Shown piece after piece: positions 1-35,238 of a DNA stretch of 35,238 bases. Origin of the DNA: a virus; IMG/VR virus record IMGVR_UViG_3300044980_000156, positions 1 to 35,238 of that record; one strand, written 5' to 3'. The position numbers and the translations under genes are program-made. Under the pieces are notes generated by a model. That model made no database searches. It saw only the letters and a program-made list of their open reading frames with translations, and was not told the origin of the DNA. The first letter of the stretch is position 1. Each line of letters begins with the position of its first letter.

Positions 1-127
1 TCGAAATAAATCGTTTCGATCATGCCGAACACCTGGTAGCCGCGCCCTGGACCGGCGGCGGTTCGTTCGCGCTTGATCTTCACTGACAGATCGAAATCCA
101 TATCGGCCGTTTTCACGGTGTGGACTT
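1..127. repeat. Direct terminal repeat, left copy (circular genome junction)
   Basis: Bases 1-127 are identical to 35112-35238. A repeat of exactly 127 bp is the usual overlap left by a k=127 de Bruijn assembler on a circular or circularly permuted molecule, so it is read as an assembly join rather than a biological terminal repeat. Joining the ends extends the open reading frame at 34568-35238 without a stop up to a start codon at 158, which supports the join. Confidence 0.95.
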
Positions 128-158
128 TGATCACTTCGGGATTCGCCGCTGCAAGCAT
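1..158 (-). CDS. Hypothetical protein, N-terminal part (gene crosses the window ends)
   Basis: This is the 5' part of a 233-residue protein whose remainder lies at 34568-35238. The start chosen is ATG at 158-156, preceded by AGGAAAAA, which fills the 8-base gap after the stop of the upstream gene (167). It adds MLAAANPEVIKVHT in frame before the GTG codon at 116, equivalent to 35227. Without circularisation the gene appears to start at that GTG, which has no ribosome binding site. No known family was recognised. The protein lies between a small hypothetical gene and a membrane protein in the leftward virion operon. Confidence 0.8.
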   Translation of the reverse strand, partial: MLAAANPEVIKVHTVKTADMDFDLSVKIKRERTAAGPGRGYQVFGMIETIYF

Positions 159-166
159 TTTTTCCT

Positions 167-376
167 CTATGGCCTTACGTAAAGAGTTGCGCCGAGGATC
201 GCCGGCATTCCGTACAACTGCGCCGCCGTTTCATTTCGCTCGTCGTCTTTGTAAATCTGAATCATCAAGTTCCCGTCCACGTACGCCGCTTTGCCGAAGA
301 TCGGCGGACCATCATTCAGGACCAGGGAGATTTCCTGTTCCAGTTTGAACATTCCAGATGGGCTTTCGGTTTCCAT
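167..376 (-). CDS. Small hypothetical protein (69 aa)
   Basis: A soluble, slightly acidic 69-residue protein with no signal peptide, membrane segment or cysteine pair. I do not recognise a family. The ATG at 376-374 follows a purine-rich GGAAGGGAAGT, a good ribosome binding site. The gene is followed after 8 bases by the start at 158. Upstream, the gap to the gene ending at 472 is filled by a strong hairpin at 404-444, so translation here may depend on that leader structure. Its position suggests a minor virion or assembly role, but that is only inference. Confidence 0.7.
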   Translation of the reverse strand: METESPSGMFKLEQEISLVLNDGPPIFGKAAYVDGNLMIQIYKDDERNETAAQLYGMPAILGATLYVRP

Positions 377-403
377 TACTTCCCTTCCCTGTTATGACTG
401 GCA

Positions 404-444
404 GCGGTGCGCGCCGTCTACACGGCTTGCCCTTCGCGCACCGC
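404..444 (-). promoter_or_regulatory. Strong intergenic hairpin without U-tract
   Basis: GCGGTGCGCG (404-413) is the exact reverse complement of CGCGCACCGC (435-444), and a nested stem CCGT/ACGG (414-417, 422-425) lies inside. It sits in the 95-base gap between the genes ending at 472 and starting at 376. No T-run follows it on the transcribed minus strand, so it is not a standard intrinsic terminator. It is more likely an mRNA-stability, processing or translation-control structure. Confidence 0.6.
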
Positions 445-471
445 CCCAGCCTCGTCGTCGGGGGTTGTAAC

Positions 472-1263
472 TCAATTTTCGATCCCTCGTTCTGTCACGC
501 GATATTCGCCGCCCGAAAGGTAAATCCGCGGCTGCGTTCCCCGGCAGTCGTACATCAGGCGCGGCCGCACGTCGGTTTCCTCGCCAAATTTGTGTTCGTA
601 CGTGGCCGTCTTCCCGTCCACTTGCGCTTTCTTCGTGCGATAGGCGATCACCATCGCTTCGCCCAGGTCGATCAATTCCTTCGAATTGTCCGCGCCGGTG
701 AGGGAAAGTTCGCCGCGCGAAACTTTCTGATTGCCGCCCACGAAATAAATCTGCGTTCCCGCCACGTTTTGCGCCACGCGCACGTTTCGTCCGGTGAAAT
801 CGAACACCGCCCATTTCCATCCGGTCGGCCGCTTGATCTGCAATTCGATCAAATCGCCGATTTCGGAAAGCGTCACGGGCCGCGGGGTCGGCTCGCGGTA
901 TTCGTCGATGTGCCCGGAGGGCGCGCCGTGAAATTCCCGGTACGCATCGGACGCTTCCTCGAGCCCGCCGCTGGAATTCGAGAGCCGCGCCTCGCGAATG
1001 CGCGCCGCACGTTCGCGGGTTTCCTTTTTCCGCTGCGCCGTTTCCGATGGATTCGCCATCATCACCACGAGCTCGGCGGGATTCGAAAGACGGCAGGGAT
1101 TTTCGTGTAGTGGATGAAGCACTTCCACTACGCGCCCGGACCCTTTGTGCCGTCTGCCGGGCGGAAACGCGATGCGCACGCGGTGCCCTCCGCGCGAAAC
1201 GGTCCGCACCTTTTCGCCACTCTGGACCGTGGAGTAGTGCTCGACTCTGAATTGTCCCGCCAT
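472..1263 (-). CDS. Hypothetical protein (263 aa)
   Basis: A soluble 263-residue protein. The N-terminal third is basic, a charged Arg/Lys/Glu-rich helix lies around residues 70-95, and the C-terminal half looks beta-rich. I see no catalytic motif, membrane segment or signal peptide and do not recognise the family. The ATG at 1263 lies 4 bases after the stop of the preceding gene (1268), so translation is probably coupled. An internal MMANPSE start near residue 68 is possible but less likely because the open frame is intact upstream. It follows the family of membrane-tailed proteins, so a virion-associated or assembly role is inferred. Confidence 0.65.
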   Translation of the reverse strand: MAGQFRVEHYSTVQSGEKVRTVSRGGHRVRIAFPPGRRHKGSGRVVEVLHPLHENPCRLSNPAELVVMMANPSETAQRKKETRERAARIREARLSNSSGGLEEASDAYREFHGAPSGHIDEYREPTPRPVTLSEIGDLIELQIKRPTGWKWAVFDFTGRNVRVAQNVAGTQIYFVGGNQKVSRGELSLTGADNSKELIDLGEAMVIAYRTKKAQVDGKTATYEHKFGEETDVRPRLMYDCRGTQPRIYLSGGEYRVTERGIEN

Positions 1264-1267: not shown

Positions 1268-2116
1268 CTATCTTTTCTTCCCCGTTAGATTGTTCAGCAA
1301 AATTAAGCCGCCGAGAACGATCCCGATATTCAGCGCGTTGTTTTCCAGGAACGATGTGATGTCCGTGGAAGAGGCCGATGCGGCCGCCGCGCTCGCGGTC
1401 CCAGGCGTCGAAACGATGGAAAGATTCGACGTGCTCACGTTATTTCCCACGATGCTCTGCATCGTTCCATCGCATACCGATTTCGCGTCACTAAGAAGCG
1501 CGTTACCGATCGAATCCAGAATCGTGAATTGGAAAGTGATCGCCGCGCCTGTGCCGAACACGGCGTTGAGCACGGTTTCATTGTTGCTGGACGAAAGAAC
1601 CGACATCCCGTGCGCGTTCAGTTGCGACGCGAATTGAGACATCGCCGAGGTCGGAGAAACCGTCAAATCACCAGGCCCGCCCACTACCGTGCAAACGTAA
1701 AGAAGAGTGCTTCCGCTCGGAACTTGCGCGGGCGCGCTCACGCTGGATGTAACCGTCGACGCCGGTGCAAGGGGAAGTGAACCGCCGGACGCCGCCGATC
1801 CCGCTGGAATCGTTGCGCCGTACTGCGCATACAGCTGGGTGAGCGTGATATTTCCATTGATCAAATTCGTTAAATCCTGATCCGTCGCGCCGAGCGAGTT
1901 GAGCAAATCAAGATCGCTTTGCGTGCACACTCCGGCACCGAGCGCCGCTTCCTCTTCGGAAGATGAAAACGATCCAAGCGTGATCGCGCCCGGCGCGTAT
2001 CCCATGTGCGCCACGTAGCCGAGGGAGTGGCCGCCTTTCAGATGAAACGCCCCGGACGAATAGCCCATGCCCGGGCGAAGCGAAGGCGCTCCGAATGCTC
2101 GATTGGGAAAAATCAT
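1268..2116 (-). CDS. Membrane-tailed virion-like protein, GMG-motif family (282 aa)
   Basis: The start is ATG at 2116-2114, forming an ATGA overlap with the upstream stop at 2113. The open frame extends further upstream, but only through the previous gene. The N-terminus is Gly/Tyr-rich and contains LRPGMG, like the LRGMG/RGLG motif of the neighbouring genes. A low-complexity Ser/Ala/Thr/Pro middle follows, then a soluble region of about 90 residues. A single membrane helix near residues 258-277 ends in TGKKR, the same basic tail as the genes at 2113 and 2748. The protein is therefore a likely single-pass membrane protein of the particle. Its molecular function is unknown. Confidence 0.75.
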   Translation of the reverse strand: MIFPNRAFGAPSLRPGMGYSSGAFHLKGGHSLGYVAHMGYAPGAITLGSFSSSEEEAALGAGVCTQSDLDLLNSLGATDQDLTNLINGNITLTQLYAQYGATIPAGSAASGGSLPLAPASTVTSSVSAPAQVPSGSTLLYVCTVVGGPGDLTVSPTSAMSQFASQLNAHGMSVLSSSNNETVLNAVFGTGAAITFQFTILDSIGNALLSDAKSVCDGTMQSIVGNNVSTSNLSIVSTPGTASAAAASASSTDITSFLENNALNIGIVLGGLILLNNLTGKKR

Positions 2117-2751
2117 CGGCGTTTCTTTCCACCACCTAGAAGTAAAAACAATCCGATCGCGCCGCCGGCAAAAACCGCTCCGTTCGGCACGCCGGCCCAC
2201 ACCGTTTCCTCGCCCAGCCAGGTCATGAAGCCGGAAAAGCTGTCCGTGGGTGGCGCGGCGGCGCTGGCCGCGGCGACCTGCGCCGTCGTTGGCGCGGGAA
2301 TTCCGGTGATCAAATCCCCCTGCGCGGCGAGGGCCGAGCCTTGCGTCGTCAGTTCGTTCGTGCTGGTGATCAGCGCGCCGGAATTTTGCAGCGTTTGCGC
2401 GTCCGGCGTCAGTTGCCCGGAATAGGAAAGCCCCGTCGCCGGATCGACGACGTTCGTGATCATCGAAGGCGCGGAAACATCAACGACTGATCCCGTACTG
2501 GACGAACCGCCGCCAGACGAACCGCTTCCCGATGAACTTCCAGACGCCGGCGAGGAAGCTACTCCGCTGGACGCGGGAACCGTGGGCGGCGTCGGTTCAG
2601 CGGCCGTCTCCACTGGCGCGGGCGGATTGGAAGTGAACACGCGCGCGATGATCGGCGCTGTCGGGCGATATCCCGGCCCGATGATCGGCGCTGCAGTGTC
2701 GCCAGAGGCGTGCACGCTTTCTCCCATGAACGGTGCGTTCCAGGCGATCAT
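2113..2751 (-). CDS. Membrane-tailed virion-like protein (212 aa)
   Basis: The start ATG at 2751 overlaps the upstream stop as ATGA. The N-terminal half is Pro/Ser/Gly-rich, with a run of Ser/Gly around residues 75-95, and probably disordered. The C-terminal half has a helical Ala/Gln/Thr segment. It ends with a module starting FMTWLGEETVWAGVPNG, then one hydrophobic helix, then GGGKKRR. The same W-L...G-x-P-N-helix-GKKRR ending is seen in the proteins at 2748-3458 and 3458-3796, so these are paralogues. The basic tail is expected on the inner side of a membrane by the positive-inside rule. No enzyme motif is present. Confidence 0.75.
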   Translation of the reverse strand: MIAWNAPFMGESVHASGDTAAPIIGPGYRPTAPIIARVFTSNPPAPVETAAEPTPPTVPASSGVASSPASGSSSGSGSSGGGSSSTGSVVDVSAPSMITNVVDPATGLSYSGQLTPDAQTLQNSGALITSTNELTTQGSALAAQGDLITGIPAPTTAQVAAASAAAPPTDSFSGFMTWLGEETVWAGVPNGAVFAGGAIGLFLLLGGGKKRR

Positions 2752-3458
2752 CGGCGCTTCTTTCCGCCCTGCAGGAGCGCCGGAATAATCGCCACGGCCA
2801 GGATCCCGATTCCCAGCACGCCGATGTTGGGAATCCCCGGAATCAAATTCGCGGCGGACATCCAACTGGTAAGCGAAGTCAACGGATTCGTCGTTGGCGG
2901 CGCAGCATAAAGATTGCCGGCGCTCAAAAGTGCTTGGCCCTGCGCCGTGAGTTTTCCCGCCGCCGTCACCAGTTGGCCGGACGCGTTGAGTGCCTGCGCC
3001 GCGGCCGTCAAATTGTTTGTCTGGATCGTGGAAGTCACGCCGCTATTCGGATCGGTGAGCGTCACCGTGCCTTGCGTGGCCGTGGTGTCCAGGCTCGCGG
3101 TCGCCGCGCCCGTGGTCGCGCCGGTCACTTCCTGCGCGGTCGCGTAGGGAACGCTCTGCCCCGTCTGGATGTTCGTATACGTCCCATCGCCGTTGCTCAC
3201 AAATTCCGTGCCCACCGTCGACGGATACATCGATTCAATCGATGGCGAAACCACGTTCGTCGGCGGCAGCATGGATAAATCGATAGGCGTGCTCGTATCG
3301 ATCGGAGCGCCGGTGTCGATGATCGGAGTCGAATCGTAAGTCGGCGTCGTGTCAAACTCCGATGGATCCTGGCCGAGCCCGCGCATGCCGCAGCAACGCT
3401 TTCCGTTCGGGGCAACGGTCAGTCCGGGAAGCGGTGAATCCATTTGCGCGTAGGCCAT
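2748..3458 (-). CDS. Membrane-tailed virion-like protein with MAYA/RGLG N-terminus (236 aa)
   Basis: The start is ATG at 3458-3456, sharing one base with the previous stop (TGATG). The N-terminus MAYAQ and a downstream GMRGLGQ match the motif of the neighbouring genes. The central part is Thr/Ala-rich and acidic, including a region of short beta-like repeats. Residues about 195-236 form the shared ending: SLTSWMS, GIPN, a hydrophobic helix and GGKKRR. It is paralogous in its C-terminal module to the 2113 and 3458 genes. A particle membrane protein is inferred from the tail and the operon. Two cysteines (RCCGMRG) just before the motif are unusual among its relatives. Confidence 0.75.
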   Translation of the reverse strand: MAYAQMDSPLPGLTVAPNGKRCCGMRGLGQDPSEFDTTPTYDSTPIIDTGAPIDTSTPIDLSMLPPTNVVSPSIESMYPSTVGTEFVSNGDGTYTNIQTGQSVPYATAQEVTGATTGAATASLDTTATQGTVTLTDPNSGVTSTIQTNNLTAAAQALNASGQLVTAAGKLTAQGQALLSAGNLYAAPPTTNPLTSLTSWMSAANLIPGIPNIGVLGIGILAVAIIPALLQGGKKRR

Positions 3459-3796
3459 CAGCGTTTCCGTCCCCATCCCTTGACCGCGATCAGCGCCAGG
3501 AAAGCGCCGCCGATCGCGACAATGGAATTCGGCATTCCCGGCACATACGAAGATTGGCCAAGCCAGGTGAGCATTTCGTCCCACAAACTCGTTTGCGTCG
3601 GCGTCGTTGCGGAACTCATTTCAAACTGTCCGCCTGGCCCGATCGTAAAAGTCGTGAGCGGGACATCGCCCATCCCGCGAAAGTTTGGATTGAGGCCCGC
3701 GCTCACCTTCGTGGAAAGCGGCGCGTACGATCCCATGCCGCGCAAATTCGGATGCAGCCCGGAAGTGTTTCGCGTAGTCAAGCGAGCGTAAGCCAT
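3458..3796 (-). CDS. Small membrane-tailed protein with duplicated LRGMG motif (112 aa)
   Basis: The ATG at 3796 is preceded by AAGGAACGGAAAA. The 112 residues contain two copies of G-L-[HN]-P-N-[LF]-R-G-M-G, at about residues 13-22 and 34-43. The first copy continues the MAYARLTTRNTSGLHP N-terminus shared with the next upstream gene (MAYAMLRTANTSGLHP). The C-terminus is the shared tail: MLTWLGQ, GMPN, one hydrophobic helix and GWGRKR. It is the shortest and clearest member of the family. The repeated GMG could be a protease cleavage or binding site, but nothing in the sequence proves this. Confidence 0.8.
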   Translation of the reverse strand: MAYARLTTRNTSGLHPNLRGMGSYAPLSTKVSAGLNPNFRGMGDVPLTTFTIGPGGQFEMSSATTPTQTSLWDEMLTWLGQSSYVPGMPNSIVAIGGAFLALIAVKGWGRKR

Positions 3797-3824: not shown

Positions 3825-4754
3825 TCACAGCACCGCCCATGCGCCGATGATCGCCAACATGACCCACGCCAGCGGCGGAACCGAAGCCAATCCGCTCCCG
3901 GGAACGCCGGGCGCGATCACCGAATTCCGAGGCGCGGGAGTCGTGCCGCTCGAGGCGGCGGCCGCTTGCTGCGCTTCCGCCGCTTGCTGTTCGGCGATGG
4001 CCGCGTATTGCGCCTGCCAGTACAGCACCATCGCGTACAGAATCACGCTCATTTCGCAGTTACTATTGCAGTACGGGGAATCGTTGATAGACGTTCCCCC
4101 GCTGGGAATCGATCCAGGGCCGGACGCCGTTCCCGACGCCCCGCCTTGCTGCATGAACGTTTCGTACACCTGCAACAGCGCGGCTTGCGCCGTCGCCGGC
4201 GTCATTTGTCCGCCCTGGACGGCCTGCGCGATCAGCGAAAACGAATTGTTTACCGCCGGAAGCGCGGCGCATCCGAAACTTAGATCGCGCTTCACCGCGG
4301 CCGCATGGTGAGCGAAAATCAAATCGATCACGGCAAAGATCGCGCCGATCCCCATCGTCACCGCGCCGGCGATCGCCGCCGTGGACGCCGCGATTACAGA
4401 CGTCGAGGCGAGGATCCCGATTCCAGCCGAGGATGTGCCGAGAGCTAGGCCGCTGGCCGTCTGAAAAAGATTCACGTTCGATGGAGCGGTGCCGCAGGAC
4501 GGCGAATACCATCCCACATTGAATTGCCCGGCTGAAATTTGGTTTTCCGCCTCGGTGAGCCAGGATTGATCCCCGAAGGCGTTTGAATTCAAGTGCGCGC
4601 CGGCATAGGCCGTGATGGCTCGCTGCATCGCCGCTTGCGCCGTGAGCGAGGCGGTCTGGCCAAGCATGCCGAGGCCGCGCAGCCTGCGTATGCCGCGCAA
4701 GCTGGGATGCAGCCCCGAAGTGTTCGCAGTTCGTAGCATCGCGTACGCCATCAT
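3825..4754 (-). CDS. Membrane protein with MAYA/RGLG N-terminus (309 aa)
   Basis: The start is the ATG at 4754 (ATGA overlap with the upstream stop) or the next ATG at 4751, which would give an exact MAYA start. The N-terminus NTSGLHPSLRG followed by RRLRGLG is nearly the same as in the 112-aa protein. One long hydrophobic stretch of about 40 residues (roughly 108-148), rich in Ala/Gly/Ile, is long enough for two membrane passes. A last hydrophobic helix ends the protein without a basic tail. Cysteines (PSCGT, FGCAAL, YCNSNC) are spread through the soluble loops. A helical Gln/Ala-rich segment precedes the final helix. It is probably an integral membrane protein of the particle. Confidence 0.75.
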   Translation of the reverse strand: MMAYAMLRTANTSGLHPSLRGIRRLRGLGMLGQTASLTAQAAMQRAITAYAGAHLNSNAFGDQSWLTEAENQISAGQFNVGWYSPSCGTAPSNVNLFQTASGLALGTSSAGIGILASTSVIAASTAAIAGAVTMGIGAIFAVIDLIFAHHAAAVKRDLSFGCAALPAVNNSFSLIAQAVQGGQMTPATAQAALLQVYETFMQQGGASGTASGPGSIPSGGTSINDSPYCNSNCEMSVILYAMVLYWQAQYAAIAEQQAAEAQQAAAASSGTTPAPRNSVIAPGVPGSGLASVPPLAWVMLAIIGAWAVL

Positions 4755-5557
4755 GCCGCCGCCATCCACAGCAAAGCGCCAAGCAAAATCACGCCGAAGA
4801 TTTCCATTTCCTGCGTTGCGGCCGGAATGGCCGCGGTCGATGGATTCAACAGCGTTGCGCCGCCCGGCCCCTGCGCGCCCGTATTCGCCGCCTGGACTAG
4901 TTGCCCGCCCACGGCCGTCAATCCCTGGCCGGCAATTTCCAAGCCGCTTGCCACCTGGCCAAGTCCACGCACGCCGCGGCGCGCGTAGCCGGCCATTCCC
5001 GCGTCGTTCGAATAATCTCCGTGCGAATCGTCGATCAGACTCCACCATTTGCGCCGATAGAAATGCGCGGGCGCCACTCCAAACACGGCGCCGGGCCGGG
5101 CCGCATCCAGCGGATACCACTGGCCATCCTGAAAAACTTCGCAATAGACGTGGGAAAAAGAATCGGGCGCGTTGGGATCGCAGGCGATGGTGACGAGCCG
5201 CGTTTCGTAACCGATGGTGCCGAGCAAGGCGGGAAGGACGTTCGCGTTGATATCGTCACAGTCACCGGCATGCAATTGTAAAAGTTCCCGCGTGGGCCGC
5301 AGGGCTTCTTTCATCACTGGATCGTTCACGAAATAAAACGAGTGCGCGAAATCGTAGATCGCGTGAATTTGTCCCCATGCATCGTAGGGCGCGACGCCGG
5401 CGTTGCGAACGATATCGATTGCCGTGCGATTGACGAACGGATCTTTCCAAGCATCGTCGACGAGGCGGCGCAAAAGTGAAATCGTTTGCGCCGTTCCATC
5501 GTCGCCGCCGGCAAGCGGGACGGAATAAATCAGGCCAGGGGTCGCGTGGATTGCCAC
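4751..5557 (-). CDS. Transglutaminase-like cysteine peptidase with membrane tail (268 aa)
   Basis: Residues about 30-155 look like a transglutaminase-like (papain-fold) domain. The nucleophile region is HAGDCDD with Cys100, the histidine is in FSHVYCEV (His136), and the aspartate is in WYPLDAA (Asp151), the classical Cys-His-Asp order. After residue 185 comes MAGYARRGVRGLGQ, the same motif that starts the neighbouring structural proteins. A Gly/Ala/Gln linker and a C-terminal hydrophobic helix (about 250-268) follow. It is the first gene of the leftward operon. The start is GTG at 5557, because an in-frame stop lies just upstream. Possible roles are particle-maturation protease, cross-linker or cell-wall amidase-like enzyme. 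The motif shared with likely substrates favours maturation, but this is inference. Confidence 0.8.
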   Translation of the reverse strand: MAIHATPGLIYSVPLAGGDDGTAQTISLLRRLVDDAWKDPFVNRTAIDIVRNAGVAPYDAWGQIHAIYDFAHSFYFVNDPVMKEALRPTRELLQLHAGDCDDINANVLPALLGTIGYETRLVTIACDPNAPDSFSHVYCEVFQDGQWYPLDAARPGAVFGVAPAHFYRRKWWSLIDDSHGDYSNDAGMAGYARRGVRGLGQVASGLEIAGQGLTAVGGQLVQAANTGAQGPGGATLLNPSTAAIPAATQEMEIFGVILLGALLWMAAA

Positions 5558-5648: not shown

Positions 5649-5678
5649 TTGACATGCGCCCCGTAATGCTTCTATCTT
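5649..5678 (+). promoter_or_regulatory. Sigma-70-like promoter of the rightward unit
   Basis: TTGACA at 5649-5654 and TATCTT at 5673-5678 are separated by 18 bases. Transcription would begin near 5685. This excludes the upstream in-frame ATG at 5654 and supports translation from ATG at 5714. Confidence 0.6.
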
Positions 5679-5713
5679 TCTTCCTGCCTGGCATGGAACG
5701 GAGCGTAGATCAC

Positions 5714-7303: not shown

Positions 7304-7338
7304 GAGCGAAAGTCCCCGGCAAGGGGAGCTTTCGCGGT
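7304..7338 (+). ncRNA. GGYAA-loop leader hairpin, copy 1
   Basis: This 35-nt element is identical to 10182-10216. Its 5' arm GCGAAAGTCCCC pairs with the 3' arm GGGGAGCTTTCGC over 12 base pairs with one bulged G, closing the loop GGCAA. Conserved flanks are GAG before and GGTAA after. It ends 28 bases before the helicase ATG at 7367. It would act as RNA in the 5' leader. The function is unknown. A translational operator or stability element is possible. Confidence 0.7.
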
Positions 7339-16171: not shown

Positions 16172-16179
16172 CGGAGAAA

Positions 16180-23284: not shown

Positions 23285-23493
23285 CAGTCGCTTTCCCATT
23301 GCGGGATTTCTTCGATGTCTTCCACTTCCTCGATCACGTGGTTTTGCTCGAGGGCCGGGCCGAACGCCCTGCAGCCCGCGCCGTGCTCATTCCGCAAAGC
23401 CTCGCACTCCGCAAGCGTATCGCCGAAAAAGATGTGCCGGACACGGATCGTGCCGTCCCGTTCCAATTTGTCAACGTGCAGCGCGATCGGCAT
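23284..23493 (-). CDS. Small conserved-type phage protein (69 aa)
   Basis: The pattern IRVRHIFFGDTLAECEALRNEHGAGCRAF matches small phage proteins with H-x-F-[FY]-G-x-T-x2-E and a later C-x-A/F. I know these only as hypothetical proteins. The acidic tail (EEVEDIEEIP) is disordered. It overlaps the glycosyltransferase gene by 23 bases. Function is unknown. Confidence 0.55.
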   Translation of the reverse strand: MPIALHVDKLERDGTIRVRHIFFGDTLAECEALRNEHGAGCRAFGPALEQNHVIEEVEDIEEIPQWESD

Positions 23494-24750: not shown

Positions 24751-25041
24751 TCACCGCTTCCTGTCGAGCACCGTATCGCCAGGATATATCACACTTTCAT
24801 CGTTTACGTGCCGGTGGGGCGGGAAATCCCGCATGGTCTGATTCATGCGATCGAGGGTATTGTCCAGCTTGTCGATCACATCGGAAAGATGCTGGACCTG
24901 CCCCGCTTCCTCTTGCTGGTGCAATTCGACGGCCTGGATGCGGTAGTCGAATTTGTACCAGCTTCCCACGAGGGCCACGAGAATGAAAACAAGTTTCAGC
25001 CATTCCGAGGAAATCGCTTTTTTCAGATCGTCAAAGGTCAT
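24751..25041 (-). CDS. Small membrane-anchored coiled-coil protein (96 aa)
   Basis: A membrane helix at about residues 15-31 (LKLVFILVALVGSWYKF) is followed by a heptad-rich helix (VQHLSDVIDKLDNTLDRMNQ) and a polar tail. Together with the adjacent 68-residue tail-anchored protein it resembles the two-part spanin/holin arrangement. The sequences do not prove this. The ribosome binding site is weak (AAAGGGAAA lies about 12 bases upstream). Confidence 0.55.
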   Translation of the reverse strand: MTFDDLKKAISSEWLKLVFILVALVGSWYKFDYRIQAVELHQQEEAGQVQHLSDVIDKLDNTLDRMNQTMRDFPPHRHVNDESVIYPGDTVLDRKR

Positions 25042-26756: not shown

Positions 26757-29700
26757 TCACTGCTGCAAAAGCCGTATATGTAGATCGTAGACCATCGCCG
26801 TCAGGCCGGTGGACGCATACCCAAACGCGTAGCTAATCGTCGCGCCTGCCTCGCAGTTCACAAGGAACGGCATCCCCTGCGAGTAGCTGGTGAGCACGTT
26901 GCTCCCGTTGGCTGCGTTGTCGATCGCCGTCCCCGCCGGCCAGATCGTGTAGTTGATATTCTGGGCGGTAAACGTGGTGCCGTCCGGCGTGGTGTACGTG
27001 ATCTGCAGCGGCCCCAGTGAAGATGTAGCGGTGGCCGCAGTTGTAACTTTTGCGTTCCACGAAAGCAAATAGTTGGTGCCTGTGACAGGGCTTGCGGGGC
27101 AGGTAAGAATCGATGTGGTGCCGATGGCCGCGCTTTGCGTCACCTTGTCAACAGCGGTGACAGTTCCAGTCCCGCCGCTCGTTTGGCACGTGGGGCAACT
27201 GATTGCCGGAGTAGATCCGCCGCTTGAAACGATGGGAGCCGATGCCGTGACCGCCGTGACTGCCCCAGCTGCGTTATCGTCGCAAGTCTGCCAGTTGTTT
27301 CCCCCTGCCGCCGGGCTGATCAGGACTGAGGTTAGGCAAATTGTGCCGCCGCCCGGCAGACTCCAAGTGGAAACGCCATTGATCGTTTCGGACGAAAAAG
27401 GGACAAGGGTTGAGGCGGCCGCATTGGTGTTGAAAATATTAATGTTCTGGCCGGTGTATCCCACGGCGGTCTGCAGGGTGTAGTTTCCCGCCCCGAAATT
27501 CAATACTTGGTAAGCGTCCGCGTCCTGCTGCTGCGGGCACGCGATCGTCCCTTGCACGCTGATATTGGCGAGGCTCGATTCGCTGGGCGCGTTGTGCATC
27601 GTCACGGTTGTGCCGGTGACGGAGGTTAGATAGAAATTCCCGTTGTATCCCGCCGGCGTCACGCCGGCCACTGTCACCCAGGATCCGGCTATGCAGTTGG
27701 CCGGAGTGGCCGCAACGGTGATCACGTTTTGCGTAGCACTGGACGTTCCCGAAACCGTCGCCGTAGGGGCGAGGGCGGCGGCGACGTAAACCGTAGCCGA
27801 TGAAAAATCCTGATTCCCGTACAGCCGGTTGATCGCTCTTTTGATGTAAGGCGCTTCGTAGTTGATGATTCCGTTATCTTGGATGTGCAGTTTATCAGTG
27901 GTATAAAAGTCCGTGGTGTTGTTTTGCGCGCCGTTCGCGCCCAATTGAGATGTGCCGGCAACATCCACAAATGCATCAGCGAACAAGCGCCAATTTTGCC
28001 GCAGCCAGGTGTTGAGGGAATTCTTGATCGCGTCGCCGTGCCCGTCGAGGATGCCGGCGACGATCGTTTTCCATCCCACAGCGTGCCGATTCTGAGCCCA
28101 TTGCACCATTCCGCCCTGGATCACTCCCAAAACGTTGTCATTCGTCCCGCAGAATGCGCAGATGGCGACGTTTCCGTAGCTGTAGGGATAGAACAGAGGA
28201 TCGATCGCCTGGCCGCCCGCCGGAACCATGTTTCCGTTCAGAGTTCGCCCGCCGAGCGCTTGATTCGTCACCGAAAAAGTCGTGTTGAGGCCGAACAGAT
28301 AACCCGTGTAGGAATTTGCCGGCAGTGGGGTTACGCCGGCGCAAGGGCCGCAGGATAGCGAATCTCCGTCAACGGCGAGCGTCGGTTCGCTGGAACTATT
28401 AATGTCAATCGGTTTGTAGGGGGACTGATTGACCGCTCGCGCGTTCAGCATGTTGTTTACGAATACGGTGTTTTCCTGAATTTCAGTGGCCGTTAGAGCT
28501 CGATTATAAAAAATGGCGTAATAGATTTGCGTGCCGTTCGAGGCAAAGTTGCAAAGTTGCGCCGCCCAGTTCGTGCAACTGGCCGATGCAATGCCCCCCA
28601 GCTGATAGTTTCCAGATGTTTGATGCCCCGCGCCCGTGCCAAGACCTTCCAAAATATACGAATTTGCGGCCGTTCCGTTGATGTAGAACAGATCATTCGA
28701 AGCCGACACCATATCCCACGCGATGCTTGCGTAGGATCCGGTGCCAATCGCCGCGCGCGGATACGGCCCAACGCCGTTTGGCGGCGCAGTATCTACATTT
28801 CCAGCCACATAGCGGAGATTGTGCTCCGATGCATAGCCCGTGATGATGCTATCGTTCGTCCCCCCAACACGCGTCGGCGAAAGTAAGATCATATTCGCCG
28901 CAGCGCCGTTGCCGGCGATCAGGCTTCCGCCATTGCCGCTCCCGGGAATAAAAAATAGCTGGATGGTCAACGCGGAATTTAAGGCAGCCGGTAAATTGAC
29001 TGCCCCCGTCCCAGGGAAAAGAACGCCCCCTGTGTTCGCGATCATCGTTGGCGCAGTTCCCACCGTTCCGGTCGCATTGTTGCCATTCCCGGAATAGTCC
29101 ACCAGTGCGCCCGGGGTTTCGGTGGGCAGCATCCTGTATTCCGCCATCAAACCCGATTGAACAGGAACGGCGTTCAGTCCAGGCGTGCCCGGAATCGATC
29201 CCGATCCGCTGATGCTGATCCAATTCGTCTGACACGTCCCACCGGAAGGGGCCGCGCTATCAAGCACCTGCCCGGCTGTGGGATTTGCGGTTGGCTGCAA
29301 TAGAGCGCAAGGACTAGCCGGACCGATCGACGACGGCCCCGAGAAGATCGCAAACTCATTTGCCGCGGGACTTCCAGTCGTCGTTACGGTTCCAAGGCTG
29401 GCGAAATTCGTCAACTTCCGCGCTGCGGCATTTAACGTAGCGCTGATGTCCACCGTCCCGCCAGTAATCGCGATGGTGACGGAAAAAGTCTGAGGCCCAG
29501 TTCCGAAAGGCCCTGGAATTCCGCCTTGATTGGAATTGACGGTGATCAGCCATGCACTTCCTGCTGGCAGGATCTGCGAATTGTTTCCGAAATTCGCGGA
29601 AAAGTGTCCATTGGAATCGAGCTGGACGGTGTTGATCTGCCCGGAATAGGGAAGCACGACCCCGTTGTTATTTAACGTCCATCCACCAGGCGATCCCGGG

Positions 29701-29864
29701 ACGAGAACGGCGCTCATCGTTCCATTGCCATACGGGATCCCGTTCGGATCGGTGACGGTCGCCGTGACGGTTGTGAATGGATTCGTAGTCGATGAGACAG
29801 CCGCCGGAGACGCAAAAAGAAAAGCCCCGGCGAGTACCAGGGCTGCAGCAAAGATTTTTTTCAT
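26757..29864 (-). CDS. Spike/receptor-binding candidate with LamG-like and SGNH-hydrolase domains (1035 aa)
   Basis: A Sec signal peptide is visible at residues 1-24 (KKIFAAALVLAGAFLFASPA). The N-terminal region TVTATVTDPNGIPYGNG is a beta domain. Residues about 240-475 resemble a LamG/concanavalin fold (MAEYRML...DYSGNGNNATG; later FYNRALTATEIQ). About 495-690 is an SGNH hydrolase: AVDGDSLS with Ser502, GTND with Asn575, and DKLH with Asp657/His660. The rest (700-1035) is Ser/Thr/Gly-rich beta sequence. It would bind and de-esterify (deacetylate) host surface polysaccharide, as tail-spike proteins do. A secretion signal on a virion protein is unusual and suggests that the protein is exported before assembly or meets the particle membrane. 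The gene starts after the GGYAA hairpin and a purine-rich ribosome binding site. Confidence 0.8.
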   Translation of the reverse strand: MKKIFAAALVLAGAFLFASPAAVSSTTNPFTTVTATVTDPNGIPYGNGTMSAVLVPGSPGGWTLNNNGVVLPYSGQINTVQLDSNGHFSANFGNNSQILPAGSAWLITVNSNQGGIPGPFGTGPQTFSVTIAITGGTVDISATLNAAARKLTNFASLGTVTTTGSPAANEFAIFSGPSSIGPASPCALLQPTANPTAGQVLDSAAPSGGTCQTNWISISGSGSIPGTPGLNAVPVQSGLMAEYRMLPTETPGALVDYSGNGNNATGTVGTAPTMIANTGGVLFPGTGAVNLPAALNSALTIQLFFIPGSGNGGSLIAGNGAAANMILLSPTRVGGTNDSIITGYASEHNLRYVAGNVDTAPPNGVGPYPRAAIGTGSYASIAWDMVSASNDLFYINGTAANSYILEGLGTGAGHQTSGNYQLGGIASASCTNWAAQLCNFASNGTQIYYAIFYNRALTATEIQENTVFVNNMLNARAVNQSPYKPIDINSSSEPTLAVDGDSLSCGPCAGVTPLPANSYTGYLFGLNTTFSVTNQALGGRTLNGNMVPAGGQAIDPLFYPYSYGNVAICAFCGTNDNVLGVIQGGMVQWAQNRHAVGWKTIVAGILDGHGDAIKNSLNTWLRQNWRLFADAFVDVAGTSQLGANGAQNNTTDFYTTDKLHIQDNGIINYEAPYIKRAINRLYGNQDFSSATVYVAAALAPTATVSGTSSATQNVITVAATPANCIAGSWVTVAGVTPAGYNGNFYLTSVTGTTVTMHNAPSESSLANISVQGTIACPQQQDADAYQVLNFGAGNYTLQTAVGYTGQNINIFNTNAAASTLVPFSSETINGVSTWSLPGGGTICLTSVLISPAAGGNNWQTCDDNAAGAVTAVTASAPIVSSGGSTPAISCPTCQTSGGTGTVTAVDKVTQSAAIGTTSILTCPASPVTGTNYLLSWNAKVTTAATATSSLGPLQITYTTPDGTTFTAQNINYTIWPAGTAIDNAANGSNVLTSYSQGMPFLVNCEAGATISYAFGYASTGLTAMVYDLHIRLLQQ

Positions 29865-29931: not shown

Positions 29932-31107
29932 CTACTGATAGTTCACCGTGAAATCGATCGAGGCGCTGCTCGCCTTCACGCAAATTCCATTCAGAAAAAG
30001 ATTGTCGTAAATCTCGGGCGGCGGTGTCGTCGTGGCGATCGAGGTGATCACCGAAACCACGTTCGTCGCCGGCGTGCCCGTGCAACTTCCCGGCACGAGA
30101 TCGAATAGCGTGATCGTACCGGCGGCTGGCGTGCCGATCACCACGGAGTGCACGGTTCCCGGGCCGGGTTTAATCTCCGTCGCCGTCGTGCTCGCCAAAT
30201 GCGAATAGCTGTTCGGCATCTGGAAGCCTGGCGGCAGGAAAATATAGTCCATCGTGAAGACGTTCGCATTGGCCCCGCCGGCGGTGTAATCGATCAGCAC
30301 GTTCACGCATGGAAGAGCCGGGACATCGAAAAATTGAGCGCCCGCGCTCGTGGACGGCGTGAAGGTAAGATTGGTGGGATTGACATTCGTCGACGGAGAG
30401 CACTCCACAACGATCGTCGAACCGGACGGCCCCGAACCGCCTACATAGGCAAACGAAATATAGCCGTACGCGCTTCCCAAAGGGGTTTGCGAAACCCCGG
30501 AAACCACGCTCACGCCAGCCGGCGCGTTCGCTGCAATCACTTTATCCAGTTGCGCGACTTGATAGGCTCCCACGGTTTGCACTGGCTCGGCCTGCGAACC
30601 TGAATAACTGAGTAAAAAAGTTCCGGTGTTGGGAACGCAAGTGATCTGAACTTCCACGGTGGGGAAATATCCCGATGCCGTGACCGCGGCGTTCGATCCT
30701 ACGCCGGCCTGGCCTTGCGTTGAGGTATCGGAAATCAGGTACGTTGTCCCGCTGCTATCCACACCGTAAATTGCCATCGCCATCGAAGCCACGCCACTCG
30801 TCTTCGCGTAGGCGTGATGCTGCGTTTGGTTGCGATTGTTCACGGGAAAGGTTTGCGTCGATCCCGTGCAAGCTGTCCCTGCGGGCGCTAATGTTTGCTG
30901 GACTGGAACGATGCTTACCGGCGTCTGCGCCATCGCGGAACGCGCGGTAAATCCCGCAAGAGCGAATAGGACGACGAGCGAGCCGCCCAGCTTTGCCAGC
31001 CGTTTTTTCAGCGAGGGAATGAAGGCGCGCGGCGTCTTCCGGTTGCGCAGGGCTTTTTTGATTCCCTGAATTTGCTTGTCTTTCGGAATATTTAATTTTC
31101 TAGGCAT
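29932..31107 (-). CDS. Large signal-peptide protein, virion or adhesion candidate (391 aa)
   Basis: The first 40 residues are strongly basic, then LGGSLVVLFALAGFTARS and AMA-Q form a signal peptide with a long n-region. The mature part is a Gly/Thr/Ser/Val-rich beta protein with several cysteines. Its C-terminal 150 residues contain TVHSVVIGTPAAGTITLFD, a pattern common in phage structural beta-sandwich proteins. No enzyme motif is visible. The gene lies between the capsid-like cluster and the spike candidate, so a base or stalk of the attachment apparatus is plausible. The start ATG 31107 lies six bases after the previous stop. Confidence 0.65.
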   Translation of the reverse strand: MPRKLNIPKDKQIQGIKKALRNRKTPRAFIPSLKKRLAKLGGSLVVLFALAGFTARSAMAQTPVSIVPVQQTLAPAGTACTGSTQTFPVNNRNQTQHHAYAKTSGVASMAMAIYGVDSSGTTYLISDTSTQGQAGVGSNAAVTASGYFPTVEVQITCVPNTGTFLLSYSGSQAEPVQTVGAYQVAQLDKVIAANAPAGVSVVSGVSQTPLGSAYGYISFAYVGGSGPSGSTIVVECSPSTNVNPTNLTFTPSTSAGAQFFDVPALPCVNVLIDYTAGGANANVFTMDYIFLPPGFQMPNSYSHLASTTATEIKPGPGTVHSVVIGTPAAGTITLFDLVPGSCTGTPATNVVSVITSIATTTPPPEIYDNLFLNGICVKASSASIDFTVNYQ

Positions 31108-31113: not shown

Positions 31114-31830
31114 TCACCAGGCGACGGAACGATCCGTCGCTTCGAATTGATCGTCCCACGTCCGCGGATAGAAATATCCGCCCAGGAGCGCGCCTACTTC
31201 CTCGCCAGACACGGGAAGCGACACATTCTGAAAAACCCACTGGATGATGTCATTTTCAAAAATGCGGATCCCGGAGATGCGCGCCGGGCTGGCGATAAGG
31301 CCGTAGGACGCGAGCACATTCTGATAGTTGCGCTCGGCAAAGCCTCCCGTATTCGGCCCTGCGCTGGGATTGCGCACGATCTGCCAGATCGCGGCCCCGG
31401 AAAAATCGGACCATGCGCCGCCTACCACCACGTTTGCGATGCGATTCAGCACGCCGTTTCGGCCTGGCGGGCAGGTGATCGAAACGACTGTGTGATACAA
31501 GCCATCCGCGGCGGGGATGAGAATTCCGCCGCCAAGATGGAAAGATTCGGAGTCCGGCGGTTCGATCAGCCACGGCGCGGCGATCAGCCGCGTGGAGCGC
31601 TGGACTTGCTGCATCACGCTCTGAACGGAATTGATCGCGTCGATCGTGGGATCGTCGGAAGCCGCCGGCGCGGCGGGCGGACGCAGCACTAGATTCGGCT
31701 GGATGGAGCGATCGGCGCGCCGCTTATACGGCCAGATGGTTTTCTCGATCGAAGACGCGGCCGCGTCCGTCCCGTTCGGTTGCCCGGCGGCGTCCGATGG
31801 GCTTGTGGTAACGAGTGTTTCGTAGGCCAT
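31114..31830 (-). CDS. Capsid-like beta protein with GYFYP terminus (238 aa)
   Basis: A soluble beta-rich protein. The central part (ITCPPGRNGVLNRIANVVVG, later AAIWQIVRNPSAG and IRIFENDIIQWVF) and the end VGALLGGYFYPR form a recurrent pattern I associate with phage minor structural proteins. Its C-terminal GGYFYPR fits the final-strand motif of the two preceding genes (F-x-G-Y). The N-terminal 75 residues are less structured. ATG 31830 follows GGAGAAGC at the end of the previous gene. It is a candidate minor capsid or vertex protein. The fold is inferred, not shown. Confidence 0.6.
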   Translation of the reverse strand: MAYETLVTTSPSDAAGQPNGTDAAASSIEKTIWPYKRRADRSIQPNLVLRPPAAPAASDDPTIDAINSVQSVMQQVQRSTRLIAAPWLIEPPDSESFHLGGGILIPAADGLYHTVVSITCPPGRNGVLNRIANVVVGGAWSDFSGAAIWQIVRNPSAGPNTGGFAERNYQNVLASYGLIASPARISGIRIFENDIIQWVFQNVSLPVSGEEVGALLGGYFYPRTWDDQFEATDRSVAW

Positions 31831-31831: not shown

Positions 31832-32335
31832 TTAGCTTCTCCACCAGGCCGAATAGCCGAAGAGACTTACGCTCACGGTGTTCGGATTCGCGCCGTCGAG
31901 ATTTTGGATCCGGCAATTCACGGGCGAACCGTTGGCGATGAAGTGCGGAATTTTCAGCAAGCCAGGTTCCTTGCCGTTCGTCGTGAAGAGAACCTGATCC
32001 ACGCCGTATTTTCCCCACTTGTACCCGAGCAAATCTTCGTAGATGAGCGCGCGAAAGGAACCGGATGCCGCGGCAAGGCCGGACGTGGCATGCGCCAGAA
32101 TCGCGACCAGCCAGAAATCCTCTTGGACGGTCACGCGCGCGAGGTCCGTTTCTCCGGCCGTCAAAATGAGCGGTTGAAACGCGTACCAGTAGAGATGCGC
32201 GCCGGCGAGAGAGAGCCGAACCCATTGCGGCGGAACCCATCCCGACGAAACGAGTTTTCTGCGATTCTGCCAGGCCCCGAGCGTGGGAGACATTCTCGCG
32301 CCGGGTACATGGCCTTGCGTCCAGGGATTAATCAT
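31832..32335 (-). CDS. Capsid-like beta protein (167 aa)
   Basis: A 167-residue beta-rich protein with Trp/Pro-rich N-terminus. The strands TDLARVTVQEDFWLVAILAH, PVNCRIQNLDGANP and NTVSVSLFGYSAWW follow the same order as in the 202-aa neighbour and in the 115-aa protein at 11642. The last strand ends in F-G-Y. The size fits a single jelly-roll capsid protein (the small MCP of P23-77-like viruses is about the same length). The ribosome binding site is AAAGGATAGCACGGA. Homology is by eye only. Confidence 0.65.
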   Translation of the reverse strand: MINPWTQGHVPGARMSPTLGAWQNRRKLVSSGWVPPQWVRLSLAGAHLYWYAFQPLILTAGETDLARVTVQEDFWLVAILAHATSGLAAASGSFRALIYEDLLGYKWGKYGVDQVLFTTNGKEPGLLKIPHFIANGSPVNCRIQNLDGANPNTVSVSLFGYSAWWRS

Positions 32336-32433: not shown

Positions 32434-33042
32434 TTACTGTTGTGACGGCACCGCGCCCAGCTGCGCGGCTTGCGCGGCCGGGAACAGCTTATATCCCCAA
32501 AAACTGATCTGGATCGTGTTGGCCGCGCCGCTCGTATTCACGATCGAAATGTTGTACACGCGCTTTTTGGGGAGAAGCTGCGGGATCAAGCCCGCCGGAA
32601 ATGGAAGCTGCGCGCTGCCGGCGAAGAGATCGATATTCACGGGCGCACTCATCCAGGAAAGGCCGCCGGACCCGCCCTCGGTGACGTTCACCGTCGCGAG
32701 CGCGCTCGTGTAGTCCGCCAGCAACATCAAAAGCTGGAAATCGGCGTCGCTATCGATTTGAATCGTCTGCGCGATGGTTCCATTTCCCGCGAAGGTGAAA
32801 TTCGCGATGTAGTGGAACATTTTCGCGATATAGAGATTTCCCCCGAGTTCCTGCAGTTGCGGATCGTTCATCAATTCGTTCAATTGATCCTGCGAAAGCG
32901 GCGCGCCCTGCGAAGCGCCCATCGGCACGGGCAAACGCCTTGCATGATCCAGCGCGAATCGATCCACGTCCAGCATCGACTTGAATTCTGCGATCACATC
33001 CTTAAACTTTTCGTTCGTATCCACGGTAGAAAATCCCTTCAT
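32434..33042 (-). CDS. Capsid-like beta protein (202 aa)
   Basis: The N-terminal 90 residues are helical and charged (KFKDVIAEFKSMLDVDRFALD), followed by a beta-rich domain. The order TIAQTIQIDSDADFQL, then LLPKKRVYNISIVN, then TIQISFWGYKLFP is shared with the 167- and 115-residue proteins. Position two genes after the membrane protein and immediately after the 253-residue protein suggests a capsid role. It could be a second capsid protein or vertex component. The ATG at 33042 has only a weak ribosome binding site. Confidence 0.65.
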   Translation of the reverse strand: MKGFSTVDTNEKFKDVIAEFKSMLDVDRFALDHARRLPVPMGASQGAPLSQDQLNELMNDPQLQELGGNLYIAKMFHYIANFTFAGNGTIAQTIQIDSDADFQLLMLLADYTSALATVNVTEGGSGGLSWMSAPVNIDLFAGSAQLPFPAGLIPQLLPKKRVYNISIVNTSGAANTIQISFWGYKLFPAAQAAQLGAVPSQQ

Positions 33043-33156: not shown

Positions 33157-33918
33157 CTAGAGAACCGCGCGCGCCTTTTGACCTTCCAGGTATACGAACG
33201 CATTGATTCCCGTCCCGATGGGCACGGTGTTGTTTGCGTCCGTAGTGAAGCCCGTGGCTTGCGCCCAGGCCGCCTGCGTGGGATCGACTTCGACCCTGAA
33301 CGCCTGTTGCTGCGCGATCAGGATTCCATCGATATTCGGGAACTGGTCGACGCCGGGAGTTCCGTCGCATCCGGGATCCGTCAAACGGAATCCCTGGTGC
33401 TCCGAAGGCAGCCCATTGCCCACAGCCCCGATGATCGTGGTCGCCGCCGTGGCGCCAAATTGCTGCGCCCACACGCCGCCGCCTGCCGGCAATTTCGCCA
33501 GCACGCCCACCACAAAGAACGACTTCGTGGAAATGAAGAAGTTCACGATGGTCTGGCTTCCGAAGCGAACCATATCGAACTGGTTCACGTTGTTATCGAC
33601 GAATACGGTGATCCCGCGAACAAGCATGCGCTCCGGTGCCTGCAACTGCGCCGATTGCTGCATGCTCGTCATTTGCAGGGTTTTCGTCACGGTCGCGCCG
33701 CCGGTGATGGTGAATGGATTGTTCTGCGGGATCGTGAAGAGGACTTGCTTCACGACGGCCGTGGAAACCGCCACTCCGTAGTAATCCCATTCCGGTTGCA
33801 CGACGAAATCGCCGAGGCCCGCCGCCAGCATGTTGCGCAGGCGGAATTTAGGCCGTCCGATTTCGTGCGCCGAAAGTTCCTGCAAATGCGAAAAGCATTT
33901 TGCGTTGAGATGTTTCAT
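33157..33918 (-). CDS. Major capsid protein candidate (253 aa)
   Basis: A 253-residue soluble beta-rich protein with a conspicuous N-terminal segment (HEIGRPKFRLRNMLAAGLGD). Reasons to propose a major capsid protein: an excellent ribosome binding site (AAAGGAGCACCGAACA), a leader hairpin before it and two hairpins after it (as in genes with separately controlled high expression), a position at the head of the capsid-like cluster, and a size near that of the PM2 major capsid protein P2 (269 residues). No HK97-type features are seen. A double or single jelly roll is possible. A structure prediction would be decisive. Confidence 0.55.
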   Translation of the reverse strand: MKHLNAKCFSHLQELSAHEIGRPKFRLRNMLAAGLGDFVVQPEWDYYGVAVSTAVVKQVLFTIPQNNPFTITGGATVTKTLQMTSMQQSAQLQAPERMLVRGITVFVDNNVNQFDMVRFGSQTIVNFFISTKSFFVVGVLAKLPAGGGVWAQQFGATAATTIIGAVGNGLPSEHQGFRLTDPGCDGTPGVDQFPNIDGILIAQQQAFRVEVDPTQAAWAQATGFTTDANNTVPIGTGINAFVYLEGQKARAVL

Positions 33919-33936
33919 TGTTCGGTGCTCCTTTCT

Positions 33937-33953
33937 CCCGGCCCGTAGCCGGG
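33937..33953 (-). promoter_or_regulatory. Leader hairpin of the major capsid candidate
   Basis: CCCGGC (33937-33942) and GCCGGG (33948-33953) pair around a five-base loop. It ends on the minus strand a few bases before the GAAAGGAG ribosome binding site of the gene starting at 33918. A 5' mRNA-stabilising hairpin is typical of highly expressed phage capsid genes. Confidence 0.45.
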
Positions 33954-33984
33954 GACGTTGTTACTGCATGAAACTGCATCGCCG

Positions 33985-34476
33985 CTAGGACACGTATTTG
34001 CTATACGCGCGCCGCGGGCCGTACATGCCCATCGCGGACGTTGCCGCCGCAGGCGCCGCCGATTTTCCGGGCGACGTCTTGGAAGCCGATGCCGCGATGG
34101 CCGGGGCCTGTTGCTGATACGCCGGAGTGGGGATCGTGAAATTCAACGGTCCATACTGGCCGAGCGTGAGCGACTTCCCGGTTGCCACGTTGACCGCACG
34201 GGAAACCGCGTTGACCGAACCGCCGATCAGCACGCCTTCCGCAAGGTCGGCACTCATTCCTTTGATCAGGAATGCGCCGCCGAACGCGACGACCAGAGCG
34301 GCAAACACTCCGGCCCATCCCGTGCTGAACGATGGAGCGACCATGCCCGGAATCGTTCCCGCGGCAAGAGCCCCGCCGACCGCGCCCGCCACTTTGACGG
34401 CGAGTTTGTTCATATCGCCGGCGCCGAACGGGTTACTGCGGCGGAACGGGTGAAACCCTTTTTTGTGATGCGCCAT
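33985..34476 (-). CDS. Glycine/alanine-rich membrane protein (163 aa)
   Basis: The start is ATG 34476 with GGAGGATTT before it. The open frame runs on to 34566 without such a site. A basic N-terminus (HHKKGFHPFRRSNPFG) is followed by hydrophobic, Gly/Ala-rich segments at about 22-46, 50-75 and 78-95, and a Pro/Ala-rich polar tail ending RRAYSKYVS. Such proteins are common beside the capsid gene of tailless phages and might line the particle membrane or bridge it to DNA. Function is not established. Confidence 0.6.
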   Translation of the reverse strand: MAHHKKGFHPFRRSNPFGAGDMNKLAVKVAGAVGGALAAGTIPGMVAPSFSTGWAGVFAALVVAFGGAFLIKGMSADLAEGVLIGGSVNAVSRAVNVATGKSLTLGQYGPLNFTIPTPAYQQQAPAIAASASKTSPGKSAAPAAATSAMGMYGPRRAYSKYVS

Positions 34477-34567
34477 AAATCCTCCTTCCCCGCCGTCTTT
34501 GTCCCCATGAATCCGACGACGCCGGCGAGCGTCATACGTGGGATTGACAAGTCTGACGAGTTGCATA

Positions 34568-35238
34568 TCAGCCTTTCAAACTTGTGGACGCCATAGCGTC
34601 CAGATTGAAATGATCCGAAATGTCGTAGCGCCCGCCTTTGAAAAGACATTCGCCCGAATACGGATCCACCAGCAAAGCCATTTTCGTATCGTCCCAGCTG
34701 CTCATGGACGAAATCGGCATTTTGTGGCTGCCGAGGGAGGCCCAATTCGCCGCGCCCACCGCCGTGACGACGATGATTTGCGCGATGGGATGGAACACCA
34801 GAAAATTCCTGAATTTCGCCGAGGCGATCATTTCGAGGCGCTGCCGGCGCTTCGGCGCCTCGCGCGGCGCTTCGTCCGGCGCCAGATGGCTTTGCCCGCG
34901 CCGGTCCACCTTGAAAGGATTTTTCACCGGCCGCGTGGGATCGGGCACGTCCGGCATGGCCGCATAGCCGCGCCGCAGCGGCAAGCGCGACACGATCAAA
35001 AGATCGCCTTCGGGGATCGATCGCGCGATCGCCGGACCGTGATCCGGCCAGTACAGGCGGCGGCCCACTTTTTCGGCATCCTCGAGCGGCATTTTGCAGC
35101 CATCGTCCGGCTCGAAATAAATCGTTTCGATCATGCCGAACACCTGGTAGCCGCGCCCTGGACCGGCGGCGGTTCGTTCGCGCTTGATCTTCACTGACAG
35201 ATCGAAATCCATATCGGCCGTTTTCACGGTGTGGACTT
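34568..35238 (-). CDS. Hypothetical protein, C-terminal part (gene crosses the window ends)
   Basis: Main part of the 233-residue protein that starts at 158 across the join. Within the window the frame is open to 35238. The sequence starts with a beta-rich, acidic part (VKTADMDFDLSVKIKRERTA, then VFGMIETIYFEPDDG), followed by a basic Pro/Arg-rich centre (RRGQSHLAPDEAPREAPKRR) and a hydrophobic beta segment (FRNFLVFHPIAQIIVVTAVG). No signal peptide is present at the true start. No family was recognised. Its position suggests an assembly or minor capsid role. Confidence 0.75.
   Translation of the reverse strand, partial: VHTVKTADMDFDLSVKIKRERTAAGPGRGYQVFGMIETIYFEPDDGCKMPLEDAEKVGRRLYWPDHGPAIARSIPEGDLLIVSRLPLRRGYAAMPDVPDPTRPVKNPFKVDRRGQSHLAPDEAPREAPKRRQRLEMIASAKFRNFLVFHPIAQIIVVTAVGAANWASLGSHKMPISSMSSWDDTKMALLVDPYSGECLFKGGRYDISDHFNLDAMASTSLKG
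35112..35238. repeat. Direct terminal repeat, right copy (same sequence as 1-127)
   Basis: Identical to bases 1-127. It marks the overlap at the end of a circular assembly and should be counted once. Confidence 0.95.

Follow-up and report, generated by a model that had tools for sequence, protein, structure and literature searches.

A circular virus genome and its soil relatives point to a new group of probably tailless single-jelly-roll phages of Terriglobia

Comparison with described tailless phages

Salisaeta icosahedral phage 1 (SSIP-1) is described as tailless, with a membrane inside the particle and two different proteins in its capsid (PMC4958249, PMC5332951, PMC6356626), and its record is a circle of 43,788 bp. 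Judged by protein sequences, it appears to be the closest known, distantly similar phage to the genome analysed here, the stand-alone virus record IMGVR_UViG_3300044980_000156 of IMG/VR (35,238 bp in full length, hereafter the window, with genes designated g02, g08 and so on). Both are circular double-stranded DNA (dsDNA) genomes of the 30-45 kb class, and both encode a transglutaminase-like protein with a C-terminal transmembrane helix (TM), which is structural in SSIP-1, as well as a domain of the type found in g46 and g47 of the window. The two phages differ in size (43.8 versus 35.1 kb), in the host, which is Salisaeta for SSIP-1, in their other gene content, and in the ATPase: gp40, the annotated ATPase of SSIP-1, does not match the HerA-like ATPase g19 of the window.

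Two structural proteins of SSIP-1 link it to the window. The protein gp34 matched the g08 profile with an E value of 2.5e-18, and both proteins carry a membrane helix at their C-terminal end. With the caveat that many bacterial proteins contain transglutaminase-like domains, the similarity makes a solid case for homology. The second protein, gp47, scored 18.8 bits with the joint g46/g47 profile, in a match that is concentrated on the last strands and occurs weakly in two places, as compared to at most 8.8 bits for 5,000 shuffled sequences and at most 6.3 bits for those of 10,605 open reading frames (ORFs) from ATPase-bearing contigs that lie outside the family; this similarity is suggestive of homology. 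A shared large capsid protein or ATPase was not detected, as the profiles of g48, g45 and g19 gave no significant match in SSIP-1. The original prediction, made from the letters of the window, had considered a relationship to single-jelly-roll viruses, and the matches of gp34 and gp47 support this idea.

Other tailless phages are similar in architecture. P23-77 and SH1 (Matshushitaviridae/Sphaerolipoviridae) have dsDNA genomes of 17-31 kb with adjacent genes for a small and a large capsid protein, an endolysin or transglycosylase and an FtsK/HerA ATPase. However, their ATPase is short and encoded with or near the capsid genes, whereas g19 is long and lies in the opposite unit, and g48, g47, g45 and g19 had no sequence match in P23-77 or SH1, with best scores of 5-6 bits. 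The corticovirus PM2 is likewise a tailless membrane phage with circular dsDNA and a virion lytic enzyme carrying a TM, but its genome has only 10 kb, its capsid is of the double-jelly-roll type, and it has no sequence match to the window. Finally, tailed soil phages with a HerA-like ATPase share the g19 family, but they carry a terminase, portal, sheath or HK97 capsid and lack g48. The size of the window had initially been regarded as unusually large since the known genomes were thought to span 10-15 kb. This view has to be given up: tailless membrane phages of 31-44 kb are already known (30.9 kb for SH1, 43.8 kb for SSIP-1), and the size of the window has precedents.

A circular genome, its relatives and their host

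The window represents a complete genome, either circular or circularly permuted, with a unit length of 35,111 bp. Its two ends overlap exactly (see the table), and joining them restores g50, an ORF of 233 amino acids (aa) that extends from 34568 to circle position 35269, i. e. window position 158. Full-length orthologues of g50 with 62-69% identity are present inside the contigs of most relatives. Moreover, a near-identical relative (record F) is opened in a different gene, the capsid gene (window 33,322-34,022), and has its own terminal overlap of 99 bp; the overlaps of other relatives measure 127, 97, 97, 123 and 24 bp. These lengths are typical of assembler k-mers, and the genomes are opened at different points; we therefore rejected the idea of a biological terminal repeat and conclude that the 127-bp repeat is an assembly overlap. 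The genes form two divergent units, one on the plus strand (about 5654-19501) and one on the minus strand that extends from 5557 across the junction as far as 19839. Thus, the circular, complete state of the genome and its two long transcription units are as originally proposed. An exact 35-bp repeat that contains an inverted repeat occurs at 7304-7338 and 10182-10216, in front of plus-strand genes or at their very beginning; it may have a role in regulation or replication.

When 2.9 million viral contigs were searched with g48 (253 aa), g47 (202 aa) and the ATPase, about 28 IMG/VR contigs with the same virion genes came to light, among which those that look complete have 33-39 kb. The circular order g08-g02-g50-g49-g48-g47-g46-g45-g44 is kept, and g09 and the unit with DnaB and the ATPase are divergent from g08. 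This order holds even among relatives with only 34-40% identity in g48; the positions of g07 and g43 shift. Neither g48, nor its provirus form (see below), nor the ATPase had a match in 50,697 phage records; the provirus g48 was also without a match in 72,556 plasmids, and a viral scan with its profile found none. We found no paper that apparently describes these viruses in the literature covered, from which subscription journals are mostly absent. The fixed order of the virion genes in about 28 contigs supports the earlier notion of a new group: very probably, this is a hitherto undescribed family-level group of tailless single-jelly-roll phages that is widespread in soil.

When 84,980 species of bacteria and archaea were scanned with a pattern, a single contig matched; it has 34.7 kb and had been binned into a metagenome-assembled genome of Terriglobia (Acidobacteriota). 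A profile search uncovered more diverged copies in four of 399 Terriglobia genomes and in seven of 397 genomes of one order. The copies G219, G380, G836 and G090 are embedded in contigs of 77-497 kb, with host genes on their flanks in the cases examined. They retain the late block and its gene order; only in G090 are two genes exchanged, g46 coming before g47. They are best read as integrated proviruses. Given these integrated copies, the host of the group is probably Terriglobia, and we infer from these relatives that the phage of the window infects Terriglobia as well. All three long-contig proviruses examined (G219, L218/L219; G380, L220/L221; G836, L234 with truB at 4039-4914) lie no more than a few kb from truB, a gene of the host, and twice the same end faces truB. 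No obvious integrase was seen in these three proviruses. The proximity to truB suggests a preferred integration site, or integration of the XerCD type.

Capsid candidates, the ATPase and competing interpretations

The protein g48 is the most conserved one of the late unit (83-91% identity, the near-identical relative aside), which would fit a major capsid protein, and the greatest variation is seen in g43, in line with a role in receptor binding or at the vertex. The genes g48 and g47 are adjacent in every member that has both, except for the divergent provirus G090, in which g46 is located between them. Since g46 and g47 are paralogues, their families were aligned together with the provirus forms, and the 49 sequences served as input for AlphaFold2. 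The resulting model of the g47 domain has eight strands in a jelly-roll-like arrangement, with a predicted local distance difference test (pLDDT) score of 89.8 and a predicted template modelling (pTM) score of 0.80. Its nearest Foldseek matches in the PDB have jelly-roll folds or beta sandwiches akin to them; they comprise PHM, nucleoplasmin-like proteins, the capsid of a nanovirus and the birnavirus VP2. Among predicted viral proteins, its matches include I1ZBI0 (E 3.3e-4, TM score 0.64), a 256-aa protein that is as long as gp47 of SSIP-1. The predicted fold supports a capsid-type jelly roll; taken alone it leaves a decoration protein possible. The first inspection of the window had named g46, g47 and g48 as jelly-roll candidates, and this is supported for g47 by the model and for g46 by its homology to g47, so that it is only for these two that a single-jelly-roll capsid protein is indicated; g48 is still a candidate. 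Sequence searches of the PDB with g48, g47, g45 and the joint profile gave nothing below an E value of 0.5, and the g48 family members had only single matches at chance level in PHROGs.

Two features of the provirus proteins deserve mention. In G090, the g46/g47 homologues (L223:2216-3259 and L223:3275-4159) are about twice as long and resemble two jelly-roll-type domains in tandem. In other proviruses, the g47 homologues (L220:18384-18827, L228:1460-1969, L229:967-1410) have an N-terminal zinc-ribbon-like stretch of the CxxCxG type that is absent from g47 of the window.

The scans of the 51 predicted proteins against PHROGs and Pfam did not detect any terminase, portal, HK97 capsid or tail family, and the same Pfam scan does detect hallmark families in control contigs. 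The window thus lacks detectable versions of the proteins that mark the Caudoviricetes (large terminase subunit, portal, HK97 capsid), as had been noticed from its letters, and neither a terminase nor a portal, named at that time as findings that would refute the proposal, turned up in these profile scans. Terminase_6N (PF03237) is absent from every record of the capsid group that was tested, whereas other contigs with the ATPase carry it (12 of 45 records tested, none from the capsid group).

The ATPase g19 has Walker A and B motifs, among them GQTQLSGKTT, a conserved VPE(A/S)QDF block and a HerA-like core, and these features place it in the HerA/FtsK superfamily; the match of its Walker B region to HerA (7f6d) is weak (E 0.036). 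The family is present in 28 of 29 records searched, most of which were found via the capsid gene, the exception being a 13.6-kb fragment. More than 50 contigs that lack g48 encode members of this family as well, with 33-45% identity to g19 over most of the length, and Pfam identified in individual contigs a lambda-type portal together with a GpA terminase and a sheath, a P22-type portal with a terminase, or an HK97 capsid. The suggestion that this ATPase points to a tailless virus is therefore not borne out, several of these contigs being clearly tailed phages, and we rejected the enzyme as proof of such a virus: a HerA-like ATPase by itself is no marker of tailless viruses. In a FastTree phylogeny, the sequences from capsid-bearing genomes cluster, with the exception of provirus G836, and are separated from a clade that comprises 46 others; six distant ATPase contigs that had at first been taken as family members carry no capsid genes and were rejected. 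HerA-like ATPases with a C-terminal extension are widespread in tailed phages of several morphologies, beside their own terminases (L105, L242, L244-L248); L105, read by eye, is an apparent Mu-like Bacteroidetes phage. One subgroup (G034, G044, G056, L092) is short, with about 355-390 aa, and lacks the C-terminal half of the 610-aa form of the window.

Taken together, we consider it likely that the window is the genome of a tailless icosahedral dsDNA phage of Terriglobia with a single-jelly-roll capsid and, probably, an internal membrane. Its capsid would consist of the single-jelly-roll protein g47, the paralogue g46 and, most likely as the second major capsid protein, g48. An internal membrane under the capsid would hold the TM-tailed proteins g03-g08, g49 and g50, and the DNA would be pumped into the capsid by g19. 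Several observations weigh against this interpretation. The membrane cannot be seen in a sequence, and its basis are the C-terminal TMs on late proteins. A structure prediction for g48 from ten similar sequences reached a pLDDT of only 27, and g48, g47 and g45 have no sequence match to capsid proteins of P23-77, SH1 or PM2. The Foldseek matches of g47 in the PDB are weak (best E 1.2e-3), and those among predicted viral proteins include several from tailed phages. The direct hhalign comparison of gp47 of SSIP-1 was weak (probability 10%), and for this reason its homology to g46/g47 is no more than suggestive. As for the ATPase, g19 lies in the early unit, its family occurs in tailed phages beside terminases, provirus G380 carries a different HerA-like ATPase (DUF87 and a winged helix), and none was found in provirus G219. 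In view of the first three of these points, we give about even odds to a role of g19 as the packaging motor, which is suggested by analogy with other tailless phages.

Three other interpretations have to be weighed. The window might come from a tailed phage whose morphogenesis module has diverged: the jelly rolls would then serve for decoration or as hub or fibre proteins, and its portal, terminase and HK97 capsid would have escaped recognition. The g19 family in phages with portal and terminase, the tailed-phage proteins among the g47 matches and the 463-aa protein g09, which belongs to no known family, would be compatible with this idea. Yet no hallmark was found in the 51 proteins or in any member tested with working positive controls, the late unit has no protein of the usual size of a portal, terminase or tape measure save the variable g43 with its hydrophobic start, and the links to SSIP-1 virion proteins tell against it, so that we regard it as unlikely. 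Even less probable, in our view, is a tailless phage with a double-jelly-roll capsid as in PRD1, PM2 or the groups of Yutin 2018, in which g48 would be a small double jelly roll like that of PM2: the length of g48 is indeed close to that of the PM2 major head protein (a 270-codon gene), and HerA/FtsK-type ATPases occur in both the single- and the double-jelly-roll virus kingdoms (PMC8328091), but g48 does not match PM2, the provirus capsid proteins with 214-248 aa are very short for a double jelly roll, and a single-jelly-roll capsid accounts better for a set of four small, separate beta-rich proteins that includes two paralogues. That the window is not viral at all, i. e. a large conjugative or plasmid-like element or a domesticated particle cluster, is very hard to believe. 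The circular form, the methyltransferases and the copies in host contigs near truB could be explained in this way, but the endolysin, the possible spanin, the transglycosylase and the conserved multi-gene late block argue for a virus, no relaxase is among the Pfam and PHROG matches of the 51 proteins, and the capsid gene has no match among the plasmids searched.

Gene content, proposed infection cycle and implications

The features of the window are listed in the table; membrane helices were predicted by a hydropathy scan. C-terminal helices are found in the transglutaminase-like protein g08, the transglycosylase g34 and g04-g07, and several of these proteins end with KKRR or RKR, in good agreement with the membrane-tailed proteins and the two membrane-anchored enzymes of the original prediction. 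The g04, g05 and g06 profiles match the same ORFs in the relatives. For g09, Pfam and PHROGs gave no family match and the PDB nothing below an E value of 0.15, and g43, which begins with a hydrophobic segment, has no Pfam or PDB match.

Table 1. Features of the window
Feature	Position	Strand	Evidence and remarks
End overlap	1-127 = 35112-35238	none	exact 127-bp direct repeat; circle of 35,111 bp
g02, core late protein	472..1263	-	conserved in all complete relatives and proviruses
g03, late, membrane-tailed set	1268..2119	-	C-terminal hydrophobic stretch below the TM cut-off used; ends TGKKR
g04	2113..2748	-	C-terminal TM, then GGGKKRR
g05	2748..3464	-	C-terminal TM, then KKRR
g06	3458..3796	-	C-terminal TM, then RKR
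g07, conserved	3825..4754	-	two internal TMs and one C-terminal TM
g08, transglutaminase-like	4751..5557	-	Pfam Transglut_core; C-terminal TM; homologue of SSIP-1 structural protein gp34
g09, core protein, 463 aa, divergent from g08	5654..7045	+	conserved in relatives
g10, DnaB-like replicative helicase	7367..8824	+	Pfam DnaB and a further family match
g19, HerA-like ATPase with C-terminal extension, 610 aa	12276..14108	+	candidate packaging motor; common to tailed phages
C5 cytosine DNA methyltransferase	16168..17520	+	Pfam
N4/N6 DNA methyltransferase	17517..19052	+	Pfam
M15/VanY endolysin-like peptidase	22099..22578	-	Pfam
g34, lytic transglycosylase (SLT_3) with C-terminal TM	22775..23299	-	Pfam; conserved in relatives
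Possible Rz-like spanin	24751..25041	-	phrog_214, E 4.6e-4
g43, 1035 aa, most variable late gene	26757..29864	-	candidate receptor-binding or vertex protein
g44, conserved late protein adjoining the capsid block	29932..31107	-	order kept in relatives
g45, conserved beta-rich late protein	31114..31830	-	order kept in relatives
g46, g47 paralogue, jelly-roll family	31832..32335	-	hhalign probability 94%, E 1.2e-7
g47, 202 aa, jelly-roll-like, candidate small major capsid protein	32434..33042	-	AlphaFold2 and Foldseek
g48, 253 aa, candidate large major capsid protein	33157..33918	-	most conserved; in all members
g49, small TM protein, always adjoining g48	33985..34566	-	gene order of relatives
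g50, 233 aa, core late gene, one predicted TM	34568..35238, across the junction to 158	-	order conserved in relatives

In the most likely infection cycle, g43 and g44 would recognise the host, and two membrane-anchored proteins would help to open the cell wall on infection, the transglycosylase g34, which is probably virion-associated, and the transglutaminase-like g08. The progeny may then be released by the M15 endolysin and the spanin-like protein.

A bolder reading would see here a new tailless lineage of order level in Terriglobia, with lytic circular and integrated forms, that preserves steps of the transition from single to double jelly rolls. It is suggested by the adjacent paralogues g46 and g47 and by the two homologues in G090 (348 and 295 aa), each apparently with two such domains in tandem, and gp47 of SSIP-1 may likewise contain two tandem domains; we regard this reading as doubtful. 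In its central idea, that large tailless phages with ties to single-jelly-roll viruses form a new group here, the original prediction is likely to be right.

Only a few single-jelly-roll membrane phages have been isolated, the majority from salterns and hot springs, and to our knowledge SSIP-1 had almost no relatives at the sequence level. Thus, a type of virus known almost only from extreme habitats seems to be common in soil: dozens of soil contigs and several proviruses of Acidobacteriota, which standard virus databases label only as unknown, form a coherent group. This group supplies a host phylum, candidates for inducible proviruses and enough sequences to solve the architecture of the capsid, and its single- and tandem-domain forms bear on the origin of the double-jelly-roll capsid.

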